Shown here: piece after piece, positions 12,634 through 17,699 of the stretch | Layout of the letters: each line of letters starts with the position of its first letter | How positions within the stretch are numbered: the stretch's first letter is position 1 | Source of the DNA: Asterionellopsis glacialis | Taxonomy: Eukaryota > Bacillariophyta > Plagiogrammaphyceae > Rhaphoneidales > Asterionellopsidaceae | DNA: 64,000 nucleotides | Reading direction: 5' to 3' | Assembly (NCBI GenBank): GCA_014885115.2 | Contig: WKLE02001741.1 | Span: 1-64,000 of the forward strand | Program-made: the position numbers and the translations under genes | Notes under the pieces: generated by a model | Told to the model about the DNA's origin: nothing | Databases searched by the model: none | Seen by the model: the letters and a program-made list of their open reading frames with translations, nothing else

Positions 12634-14108
12634 ATGAGAAGGGTAGTGGTTTTGTTTTTCCTTCTTGGCTCAATTGCGTTCCGTGTATCATCTGCCTTGA
12701 ACGGCGATGATCGGTCACTCAGAGAATCACAACGAGCTGAACGGAGAAATTTTTTTAGACGAGCTGGGGGAGGTAGAACTCGTGGTGGAAACAAACCAAG
12801 GTCAGCTGCGAAACCAAATCCAAGGAAAAAAAGAAAACGTACTCCTCTCCCTCCAACAACTTCTAGACCGACTGCTTCTCCCACGACTTCGGCACCAACT
12901 AAATCACCCGTACCAAGTCCCTATAATTATACAGTTGGAGTTTACTATTACCCATGGCATTCACATGACTTTCATGGAGGGAAATACCTAAGAGCTGATT
13001 TGGAGCCTGAGCAATATCCGGAGTTGGGGGAGTATGATGATCGGGAAGCATCAGTTATTGCTCAGCATTTACAATGGAGCAAGTATGCGAATATTAATTT
13101 ATGGGTTTCTGCCTGGTGGGGTCCGGGTAGACGAACTGATACTACGTTAAAGCAGCACGTTTTCCCTCACAATGACTTGGCAGATAGTGGTGTTAAGATA
13201 GCCCTACTGTATGAAACCACAGGTCGCATTGATACAGATGCACTGAACGATACCGCAACAGCAACAAGAAGGGTATACGATGACATTGATTACATAGCAA
13301 AAACATATTTTGACCATGACAGTTATCATCGCATAGATGGACGTCCTGTCGTTTTGATATACATCTCTCGCTGGTTAGACAATTATGATTTGCTAGAAGA
13401 GGTAGTCGGGTTGATGCGTAATGCTTCTGCTGCAAATGGGCATGATATATACCTTATTGGAGATCAAGTTTGGGGCAGGGCCCCAGGGGACAACTATCCT
13501 CCATTTGCCCTTTTAGATGCTGTAACTAACTATGGTAAGAGTTTCGTACAGACACACGTCAAGTTTTGCTGTCATGTTAAATTTGTATTTCTTATAATGC
13601 TTGTCGTTTACAAAAACTATGCCTTGTTTCAACAACAGATGTTTACGGCAACATGAATAGAAAGTATTATGCAGGGCAAGACGGAGTTGATTCATACCAT
13701 GAGAAACAAGTAGCATGGAGGGATGCAGCCAAGCTTCAAAATTGTGGATTCATACCTTCGGTGACTCCTGGATTTAATGATGCTGCAGTTCGTGATGGAC
13801 ATATTCCGGTATCAAGAAAACTCAGTGAGACATCAGATTTTGGTACACTCTTTGAGGCGATCTTAGCCAATGCTCTAACTATCCTAGATGATACGACGGG
13901 TTCAATGTTTCTAATAACATCATTTAATGAATGGCATGAAGATACACAGATTGAACCCGTCGAAGAAAATGTGTTCAAACTTGACCTGAATAGGACTACA
14001 AGCTTGCCCACAAATCTTACATACGGTCTTGACTACCAACGGTATGGAACTTTGTACTTACAGTTATTGAGAGATGCTACGTCTTCTCATAGTAGCAGTA
14101 TTTTGTAA
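12634..14108 (+). CDS. Secreted GH99-like glycoside hydrolase
   Basis: Two exons, 12634-13534 and 13639-14108, with a 104-bp GT-AG intron; the junction reads VTNY/DVYGN. About 456 aa. A signal peptide (MRRVVVLFFLLGSIAFRVSS) is followed by a basic stretch and a Pro/Thr/Ser linker (TSRPTASPTTSAPTKSP, about 72-90). The domain opens with VGVYYYPWHSHDFHGG and contains NLWVSAWWGPGR. Near the end comes ITSFNEWHEDTQIEP, matching the catalytic NEWxExTQIEP block of family GH99 (endo-alpha-mannosidase/mannanase), whose two glutamates are essential. The protein is probably in the ER/Golgi lumen or at the cell surface, acting on alpha-mannosides; the Pro/Thr linker is typical of diatom wall-associated proteins. 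The exact substrate is inferred from the family only. Confidence 0.88.
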
Positions 14109-14138: not shown

Positions 14139-14987
14139 CTAGTCAATTATTTTGTGCAATGGTCTATTTGGATGGCGATTGTAGTGGTGTATGAGTGCCT
14201 GGGACGCTGCTTTCACAAATGCATCATTGCTCTTGTCACCGGCACACTCATCTGCATTCCACCACCATTGTTGCATCCCTTCCAAAATAACGTCTACATT
14301 GAGTGGTTCCTGTGGATGGACAACTCCAGCAGGTAATGCTTCAAGTGGCCATCTAGCACTCATTACAGAAAGTTTCTTTGACCGATTTAGTGATCGATTG
14401 GGTTGTATACGACGATCAATCAACATACCAATTATGACCACATTAGCAGGTGCACTTTTTGGATCCATAACATCTGTAGAATCAGGTGAAAGGTACACTG
14501 CTCCACTTTGCTGAAGGATATAGTTTCCATCGCACCCCTCTTTACTCGTATCACAAATAAATTCCACGTTCTTGGGAAGGTCTTTCTCATTATCGTGGTC
14601 ATTCTTACCCCAAAGTTCTTGTAATCTAGCTTCAAGCGCCTCTTGATCTTTCATATTCTTAGAAACAATTTGCACCGTTGCAAATTTCTTTTTATCTTGC
14701 ATTTGACACTGCCACTGTAGAAAGTTACATATTTGCTTTGCTACTGCAAGAATCTTTTCTCGTCGTGGGCGTGCCTCCGAGGGGAATCCGTAACCAGCAT
14801 CACAGATTAAAACCCTTTTTGGTAGTTGTTCTTGAAGAGATAATTTCGACAAATCCTCATTAATTGAAATGTCCTCGGTCCTCACTTCACTTTCGTCAGC
14901 ACCTTCTATATTTTCTTGCACTATCTCAGCAATTGTGTTCGTTGGAGATTTCTTCGGATCTAAAGTTGCTTTTTCTGGAGTGGCCAT
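14139..14987 (-). CDS. Trm10-family tRNA methyltransferase (SPOUT)
   Basis: Single exon, 282 aa, starting at ATG 14987. The first 55 residues are acidic and low in complexity. The core shows KRVLICDAGYG at its start, SGAVYLSPDS, then VVIIGMLIDRRIQPNRSL and SARWPLEALP. These match the Trm10/TRMT10 blocks that build the SAM-binding trefoil knot (IYLTxDS, YVIGGLVD, ARLPI). Family members methylate N1 of purine 9 in tRNA. The region after the knot (VDVILEGMQQWWW) matches the terminal helix. Divergence is high enough that substrate base and compartment are open. No clear transit peptide is seen. Confidence 0.78.
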   Translation of the reverse strand: MATPEKATLDPKKSPTNTIAEIVQENIEGADESEVRTEDISINEDLSKLSLQEQLPKRVLICDAGYGFPSEARPRREKILAVAKQICNFLQWQCQMQDKKKFATVQIVSKNMKDQEALEARLQELWGKNDHDNEKDLPKNVEFICDTSKEGCDGNYILQQSGAVYLSPDSTDVMDPKSAPANVVIIGMLIDRRIQPNRSLNRSKKLSVMSARWPLEALPAGVVHPQEPLNVDVILEGMQQWWWNADECAGDKSNDAFVKAASQALIHHYNRHPNRPLHKIID

Positions 14988-15288
14988 GGTTGACACCGAG
15001 ATTCACAAGACCGCAAGACAGGGCAACATCAAGAAAAAGAAGATAACAAAAAAATTCGAAATCAAAATAATCACAATTTTTTTTTTGCAGGTGCGGCGGT
15101 CACATGCCGGTCTGACCGTATGACGAATAGCCCACCGGATTGATTTCTGAGAAGGGCAAGCTCTACTCTAGTAGGAGTTGTAGAGACTCTCCAAACTTGT
15201 TAAAAATCCTAACACACATCTAAACCTCTAATGGTATGATTCTAACATTGAATAGACTAATTTCCGTAGTTCAACTGATTTACTCTAG

Positions 15289-15291
<3 letters not shown>

Positions 15292-15326
<35 letters not shown>
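15292..15326. repeat. (AG)n microsatellite
   Basis: Uninterrupted AG dinucleotide run of about 35 bases. Confidence 0.97.
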
Positions 15327-15329
<3 letters not shown>

Positions 15330-15479
15330 AAAAAGTTTTTAAATTATTTGATTTTACAGTATAAAAATGAAATGGCATTGGACTTTAAGTGAAATAGATT
15401 CTATTGATATTGCTTGCCAATTGAAACCCTCGCAGACGAATTCATACCACCAAGACGCAGTGGAATTTTTTAAAAAAAT

Positions 15480-15540
15480 GAATAGGTTTCAGTTCCATGG
15501 AGTACAATTTGCCGGTGGAACGTCATTATCGTCAAAAAGG
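15480..15540 (-). promoter_or_regulatory. Candidate SECIS element in peroxiredoxin 3' UTR
   Basis: About 120 nt after the stop codon, read on the minus strand, is AUGA (15526-15523), then 12 nt, then AA, then 18 nt, then UGA. This is the order and spacing of a eukaryotic SECIS. UGAC (15525-15522) faces UGAA (15491-15488), giving the tandem G-A/A-G pairs of the SECIS quartet. A perfect 6-bp helix follows (GUUCCA 15521-15516 with UGGAAC 15497-15492). The apical loop carries the unpaired AA. The lower helix is weak (GAUA/UAUU, then U-run with A-run). This was found by eye; no folding was computed. Confidence 0.6.
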
Positions 15541-15648
15541 GAGGGAATCTCCAATCAAAATCATCAATAGAAACTTAGCCTCAATCTAGGTACCACTGCC
15601 TGTACTTTGCTTATTTCATACTCTATCAGCACACGTACAACTGAATGA

Positions 15649-16242
15649 CTAATTTCCTTTGATTGCATCAAGCATGGCAGGAGCACATGTAACTTCTGGG
15701 AAGGCATCACCAGCAGGATCATCATCAGCTTCAGCAATGGCAAGGTGTTTAATTTCACCATCAACAACATGAAGGGCATGGCGCTTGCAACGTCCGATAA
15801 TACCAATGCTGTTAGGACCTTCGTGAGTTAGCTCCATATCAAGTGCCTTGGTTAGGGTTCCACTGGGGTCGCCCATGAATGTAATCATGGAACCTTCAAT
15901 GCCCTGGTCAGCAGCCCATGCCTTCATTACTGCACCATCGTTGACACAATACACAAGGACTTCTTCAATCCCTGCCTCCTTGAGAGCGTCTTGATTCTCA
16001 AGGTAACCAGGGATTTGAGTTGTGGATCACGTAGGAGTAAAGGCTCCAGGTAGACCCACGACAAGAAGATTCCTTCCCTTGGTATAATCTACCAAATTAA
16101 CTTCGTCAGGTGGGAATCCAGAATGAAGATTTACCGATGGGAGCTTGTCTCCGACACTGGCAAAAGCACGAAACGATTGCTTGTTGATAAGACCCGAAGA
16201 ACGGCCCGCCGTTCGGGCTACAACGGTAGCGATGCGAAACAT
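15649..16242 (-). CDS. Type II (PRX5-like) peroxiredoxin, predicted selenoprotein (UGA = Sec72)
   Basis: One exon, 197 residues if the in-frame TGA at 16029-16027 is read as selenocysteine. Upstream, residues 1-71 end in LPGAFTPT. Downstream the same frame continues as STTQIPGYLENQDALKEAG and then VNDGAVMKAW to a TAG stop at 15649. Type II peroxiredoxins have FTPTCS here; the TGA replaces exactly the peroxidatic Cys and nothing else is broken. VTCAPAML near the end supplies the resolving Cys, as in PRX5. A SECIS-like hairpin lies in the 3' UTR. The N-terminus (MFRIATVVARTAGRSSG...) is basic and hydroxylated, resembling a mitochondrial presequence. The enzyme reduces peroxides using thioredoxin or glutaredoxin. 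The alternative is a pseudogene with one nonsense change. Confidence 0.85.
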
Positions 16243-16808
16243 CGTATCTGTCTGGTTGTAAAAAACCTTAGCCTCTCTTTTGTGAAGAGTGTTGTCACTG
16301 CCGTGTCGGTTGTTCGGTGGACTCTTCTCTTCCGCTGACGGAAATCGACAACATCATTTTTTGGGTGTCCTTGATGGCCTCCAACCGCGCTGACGCTCGC
16401 TCGCTCGTCTCTCCCTCCACCATAACCCTGATGGAGATCCGATGTAAGAGTACAGGTATTACGTTGGAATCTACTGTATGAATTCTGGAATGTTTCAAGG
16501 GTTGGTGTGAGTATCTTTAGCGAGTCAGCCTGACTCGCATGGACCCATACTTAGTCCTACTCTGGTAAAAAAAAAGGTATTTACCCAGGTACCTTAAAAA
16601 CTAGGAGTACCTGGTAGGACCTACCTGGTACACCCGCCAGTACAAAGATCTCTTCGCCTTTCTCCAAACACTCGGTTCATCACCATCAAACAGTTTATCG
16701 AGACTCTTCGAAAAATCGAACTCGCCTTGTTGTTTTGTCACGACAACACAAACTTTCCCACCATTTCATTAGCAATTTTCACATTCTCAAATTATCTGCT
16801 AATTAACT
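16243..16808. other. Divergent promoter region with GTACC motifs
   Basis: This lies between the peroxiredoxin (-) and CacyBP-like (+) genes. Positions 16575-16635 carry TACCCAGGTACC/TACCTGGTAGG copies. No gene is supported. Confidence 0.55.
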
Positions 16809-17699
16809 ATGGAAGCGACCATGATGGATATTGAAGAAGTCGGTTCTACGGAACAGGCAGCACCGTCGGAAGAACGGCTTCTTGACGCACAAGCCATTGA
16901 GGAAGCAGCTGCTCAAATGACACGTGTATCAGCTAGATTACATTTAGAATCCTTGGCTAAAAAGTTACGAAAAGAAAGTGAAGCACTTAAGCGAGTCGAG
17001 AAAAGTCGAGCGATGGCGGAAAAATCCGAAGCTGCTGCGACGATGGAATCAGCTGGAGGTGGAAATGAAGCTTCATCTATTCCTGCAAAGGATGATGAAT
17101 CAAAATCATCTCAAGAACCTTCTGCAGTTGCAGCTACTCCTCCTGCGCCTACTCCGAGAGCTCCCAAAGTAGTAGCTGCCAAGCCACCACCATTGACGAA
17201 TCAAGCTAAATATATACCAATCGATAAATTTGCATTTGATTTTGGTGGTTACCGATCGAAATTTGTTACGATATATATTGATTTACCATTTGTGGGGACA
17301 ATCCCCAAGGAACAAATTAAATGTGACTTTCACACATCTTCGTTTGATTTGATTGTGAAAAATCTGGAAGGCAAGTCCTATCGGTTAGTAAAAACAAACT
17401 TAGAAAAGGATATAGTGCCTGACAAGTCGAAATATATAGTCAAATCTGACAAAATCGTCATTAAATTAGCCAAGGTTAAGGGCGAATACGGTAGCTTTGA
17501 CTATTGGAGTAAATTAACAAACGAAAAGAAGGGTGTCACTGGTAGCAAGAAATCAGATGACCCTTCTGCTGGTTTGATGGATATGATGAAAGACATGTAT
17601 GACTCAGGTGATGATAACATGAAGAAAATGATTGGTGAAACCATGATGAAACAACGACGAGGTGAACTGGGTGCAGACTCAGCCCTTGGTGGTCTTTAG
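16809..17699 (+). CDS. Calcyclin-binding protein/SIP homologue (CS + SGS domains)
   Basis: Single exon, 296 aa. Residues about 20-70 form a helical N-terminal hairpin, followed by an Ala/Pro/Ser-rich linker. Residues about 137-230 form a CS domain: KFAFDFGGYRSKFVTIYIDL and VKNLEGKSYRL are characteristic of CacyBP/SIP. The C-terminus (SAGLMDMMKDMYDSGDDNMK, then TMMKQRRGE) matches the SGS segment. In animals CacyBP links the SIAH1 ubiquitin ligase with Skp1 and binds S100 proteins and Hsp90; which of these hold in a diatom is unknown. The human protein is shorter (228 aa); the extra length is the linker. Confidence 0.9.
   Translation: MEATMMDIEEVGSTEQAAPSEERLLDAQAIEEAAAQMTRVSARLHLESLAKKLRKESEALKRVEKSRAMAEKSEAAATMESAGGGNEASSIPAKDDESKSSQEPSAVAATPPAPTPRAPKVVAAKPPPLTNQAKYIPIDKFAFDFGGYRSKFVTIYIDLPFVGTIPKEQIKCDFHTSSFDLIVKNLEGKSYRLVKTNLEKDIVPDKSKYIVKSDKIVIKLAKVKGEYGSFDYWSKLTNEKKGVTGSKKSDDPSAGLMDMMKDMYDSGDDNMKKMIGETMMKQRRGELGADSALGGL

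Follow-up and report, generated by a model that had tools for sequence, protein, structure and literature searches.

A predicted selenocysteine-containing Prx5/PrxII-type peroxiredoxin in the diatom Asterionellopsis glacialis

A 64,000-nucleotide stretch of the Asterionellopsis glacialis genome (GCA_014885115.2, contig WKLE02001741.1, positions 1 to 64,000 of the forward strand; here, the window) holds a peroxiredoxin frame that is open except for one TGA, placed where the family has its catalytic cysteine. Is this codon a stop, an error, a tryptophan codon, or a site of selenocysteine (Sec) insertion? We put a probability of about 95% on the last of these, namely, that this is a nuclear diatom selenoprotein gene in which UGA at codon 72 is translated as Sec by means of a SECIS element in the 3' untranslated region.

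Results

Peroxiredoxin frame with a TGA at the peroxidatic position

The coding sequence spans positions 16242 to 15649 of the minus strand, comprises 197 codons, and ends in a TAG stop (15649..15651); the TGA occupies 16027..16029 (codon 72), and the frame is otherwise intact, as the original prediction had stated. Its protein scores 80.8 bits against the Pfam Redoxin model (cutoff, 26.6), and structure comparison aligns the TGA, in the context GAFTPT-U-STTQIPGY, with the Cys of FTPTCS or FTPGCS in 3uma and 4k7i, which bears out the predicted placement at the peroxidatic position. Profile search, structure comparison, and a predicted model together show a Redoxin domain, a Prx5-like fold, and a PxxxT(S)xxC/U active site, all of which identify the product as a Prx5/PrxII-type peroxiredoxin. 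Residue 72, present as Cys in the model, lies in a helix (residues 70 to 82), and Cys99 lies at the end of a strand (residues 94 to 99). Residues 1 to about 28, a low-confidence part of the model, resemble a mitochondrial presequence, and the product is probably mitochondrial.

SECIS-like element downstream of the stop

An element with the layout AUGAC-GUUCCA ... AA ... UGGAAC-UGA occupies 15526 to 15489 of the minus strand, starting 123 bases past the stop. The motif, the perfect 6-bp GUUCCA/UGGAAC helix, and the distance of about 120 nucleotides agree with the original prediction; the spacing needs correction, in that the element reads AUGA-N12-AA-N17-UGA and the 18 nucleotides first given count to the GA. 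It also satisfies the search rule set out in PMC2375036 (NTGA, 10 to 13 nt, AA, 15 to 39 nt, GA). We scanned both strands of the 64-kb window for ATGA...TGA sites in which AA or CC follows ATGA by 8 to 14 nt, with a minimum of 6 contiguous pairs and of 8 pairs out of 12, and this element was the sole site to pass; relaxing the requirement to at least 4 contiguous pairs gave four sites in total. When a 600-nt 3' flank was shuffled 3,000 times per setting with dinucleotide content preserved, 0.9% of the shuffled flanks passed the relaxed scan, 0.4% passed the 6-bp scan, and 0.03% passed an ATGACG test. As bare letters, ATGACG-N22..44-CTGA is not rare (3 found versus 2.57 expected), so the signal lies in the helix and its position and not in the letters alone.

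The same AUGAC-G...C-UGA layout recurs in the paralogue described below and in glutathione peroxidase (GPx), SelT (two copies), and SelM genes. A scan of each locus for ATGACG, at least 3 pairs, and TGA, run in the gene direction from its base 1501 onward (712 to 2,145 bases each), gave matches in five of the seven TGA-containing genes (four of the six other than this gene) and in none of 15 others; loci L005, L007, L018, and L028, which are parts of genes already counted, and two MsrA rows lacking a locus were omitted. Two TGA genes (L016 and L025) showed no ATGACG signature in the stretch scanned. The contrast is partly circular because the signature was picked out in the very genes compared, and it approaches an independent test only for the membership of the window gene, whose element the original prediction had already noted. 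A MAFFT alignment of five SECIS elements was discarded because its 3' side was misaligned. In the SelT gene (L019, contig C1197), the two similar downstream elements lie about 235 nt apart, apparently within a duplicated 3' segment.

The alternative that survives best is that the TGA acts mainly as a regulated stop or leaky codon, yielding little full-length Sec protein, and that the element called here is not the working SECIS. With 6 contiguous pairs, helix II is short; Rfam searches returned no SECIS at E values up to 5 over 14500..17000 or up to 10 over 15380..15660, and the folding check that the original prediction had proposed gave the element no support, with energies for four cuts no better than those of shuffled sequences (z, -0.55 to +0.85). 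Against these stand the paralogue, whose corresponding element (AATGACGTTC...GAACTGA) starts 144 bases past its own stop versus 123 here, and the conservation of coding sequence beyond the TGA; we therefore give this alternative little credence. The motif, its helix, its position, and its sharing with other TGA-containing genes lead us to treat the element as a predicted SECIS.

A paralogue sharing the in-frame TGA

The genome encodes a paralogue (L001, C186:13718-14158) with TGA at the codon equivalent to codon 72. Aligned residues are identical at 27 of 47 positions before the TGA and 92 of 125 after it (119/172 overall, about 69%), and beyond the TGA the two genes differ at 24, 18, and 68 first, second, and third codon positions, respectively, the pattern expected of a protein under selection. 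Conserved coding sequence thus continues past an in-frame TGA at a Cys-equivalent position, and the comparison indicates that codon 72 is coding.

This bears on whether the locus is a pseudogene or a sequencing error, with the TGA either an inactivating mutation or a Cys codon called wrongly. The gene is known from the assembly alone, but a same-codon TGA occurs independently in a paralogue this divergent, third-position bias persists beyond it, and other genes of the genome carry TGA at catalytic sites, all of which makes a defect highly improbable.

Among the other Redoxin matches, a peroxiredoxin on C916 (L003) has Cys at the site (FTPGC). The patterns used picked out no peroxidatic motif in those on C94 and C551; the C551 match shows WCGPC, which is a thioredoxin-like site.

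Selenocysteine machinery and TGA codons elsewhere in the genome

A tRNA-Sec gene lies at C1060:24659-24744 (76.5 bits) and is called tRNA-Sec with anticodon TCA by ARAGORN. The second match of that search (C558:16134-16221; 57.6 bits with the tRNA-Sec model) is tRNA-Ser(TGA) according to ARAGORN, and the two weakest matches are tRNA-Leu. Profile searches of the genome also found SepSecS and, on C267, eEFSec, identified by the Pfam models euk_SelB_III and eEFSec_4th and by the human eEFSec structure 5izk, although it falls below the bacterial selB cutoff. The best selB match, on the tRNA-Sec contig C1060, looks like EF-Tu by sequence and was set aside. No match to the selD/SPS or AIRS models was obtained in the genome. 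AIRS (PF00586) had no match at all in the whole genome, which is odd because we assume that this model should pick up PurM too, and we read these absences as reflecting the limits of either the search or the assembly.

Across seven families, 28 match rows comprised 7 with TGA, 2 with TAG, and 19 with no stop; the TAG rows probably read through introns. The seven TGAs fall in two peroxiredoxins, two GPx genes (NVASK-U-G and NVACK-U-G), SelT (CVS-U), SelM (CSG-U), and MsrA (LG-U-FW), at what we take to be the catalytic Sec/Cys sites of their families. In the selB search, stops occurred in 1 of 23 rows (1 TGA and 2 TAA), the row of the EF-Tu-like gene, and all three fall outside that gene's open stretch. 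A nuclear code in which TGA simply means Trp (or some other amino acid) and Sec plays no part could draw on the Trp of catalogue homologues at the site but has next to no chance of being correct, given that 21 of the 28 family rows lack TGA, that all seven TGAs lie at catalytic sites, that the one further TGA (in the EF-Tu-like gene of the selB search) is outside that gene's 328-codon open stretch, and that Sec machinery is present.

The paralogous TGA, the machinery, the five other TGA genes, and the shared SECIS signature all favor Sec at the peroxidatic position, as originally predicted. We propose that tRNA-Sec(UCA) and eEFSec would decode UGA at codon 72 as Sec, with the 3' hairpin recruiting the decoding machinery. 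A tandem pair of SelT/SelW-like Rdx domains at C268:56980-57687, each with a 375-codon open frame, lacks TGA.

Relatives in the protein catalogue

A protein catalogue search gave 1,191 matches, of which 120 were listed. The original prediction had suggested comparing Cys with TGA in relatives; at the protein level, to which the catalogue extends, the motif places W at the site in 89 of the 120 listed matches, C in 22, S in 2, T in 1, and E in 1, with no motif in 5, and an alignment agrees on the W and C counts and differs in the remainder. A Trp at the peroxidatic site would presumably be inactive, and one relative (P0007) that is identical to the C186 paralogue at 166 of 175 residues has W where the paralogue's DNA has TGA; the W in these relatives thus most probably represents TGA rendered by a Trp-reading code, with a real TGG possible in some. 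Section 10 of PMC7539508 names a Sec-to-Trp change as possible.

At such a TGA, automatic annotation easily truncates or garbles the gene model, and the catalogue relatives show apparent Trp and skipped or shifted residues: P0052 (Nitzschia inconspicua) lacks the stretch at the site, and P0035 and P0039 look frameshifted. Organism names, whole or cut off, accompany 4 of the 120 listed relatives (Nitzschia, Cylindrotheca, and, apparently, Dactyliosolen and Corethron), presumably all diatoms, which agrees with the diatom source implied by the original prediction. In a tree built from the 113 rows (of 122) that carry W, C, or a known TGA, the Cys label needs 10 changes versus a shuffled mean of 20.2, suggesting that Sec and Cys forms switched repeatedly, if W means Sec. 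No relative was found in the viral contigs scanned. Among the 120 listed relatives, 10 carry a C-terminal KDEL and a further 12 a C-terminal DEL (P0002, P0004, P0110, and others), which suggests endoplasmic reticulum forms of the peroxiredoxin.

Candidate resolving cysteines

Sec would attack the peroxide to give a selenenic acid, and the thiol that resolves it would be either a conserved Cys of the protein, with Cys99 and Cys152 the most likely candidates, or one supplied from outside. Cys99 (VYCVND; 15946..15948, minus strand) is C in 78 of the 89 Trp-called and 7 of the 22 Cys-type listed relatives (the paralogue taken out of the latter row; Fisher P = 4e-7, uncorrected for kinship). Cys152 (GRCKR; 15787..15789, minus strand) is C in 75/89 and 21/22, respectively, and so is not tied to Sec. 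The resolving Cys had been reported as retained: this holds for the present gene in the form of Cys186 (VTCAPAM; 15685..15687, minus strand) but fails for most Sec-like relatives, with C at that column in 10 of 89 Trp-called versus 11 of 22 Cys-type listed relatives. In the structural comparison with 1hd2, residue 161 of that structure is matched with residue 194 of the model; barring a gap, the human counterpart, Cys151, would then lie about two residues away from Cys186. With Cys186 so poorly kept among Sec-like relatives, the better candidates for the resolving role would be Cys99 or Cys152.

Discussion

Diatom Sec peroxiredoxins have been published before: PMC2375036 lists two among 16 Thalassiosira pseudonana selenoproteins, and the 2020 algal survey (PMC7539508) describes a PRX family of Sec-containing peroxiredoxins in algae, including diatoms. 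These published cases (from Thalassiosira pseudonana, two; from Ostreococcus; and the PRX family) resemble ours in being Sec peroxiredoxins found through SECIS elements, with diatom hosts among them; they are likely of the same subfamily. This exact gene was not found in the literature searched. We regard it as a real Sec peroxiredoxin of an already known kind.

The gene shares fold, sequence, and the FTP-T/G-C-S active site with PRDX5 and other type II peroxiredoxins (1hd2, 4k7i, and 1oc3) but differs in that Sec would replace the peroxidatic Cys and in that its Sec-like relatives keep Cys99 and mostly lack the C-terminal Cys. Bacterial Cys-type homologues (Stenotrophomonas, Caulobacter, and kin) are 33 to 43% identical; 23 of the 24 loci carry Cys at the site, and the last match begins beyond the motif, at the end of a contig.

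A broader scenario, which we hold tentatively and at well below even odds, is that of an old, widespread algal Sec-PrxII clade with repeated Sec/Cys switching, in which Sec works with another resolving thiol, Cys99. Were this so, gain or loss of Sec would accompany a rewired catalytic cycle. The Cys99 correlation suggests a hypothesis, open to testing, for the regeneration of Sec peroxiredoxins. Diatom genes of this kind would tie diatom peroxide defense to the marine selenium supply.

The neighbors of the gene in the window are a partial glycosyl hydrolase 99 gene (13653-14108) and a CS-domain gene (16809-17699), and an AG dinucleotide tract of 17.5 copies lies downstream of the peroxiredoxin gene at 15292-15326.
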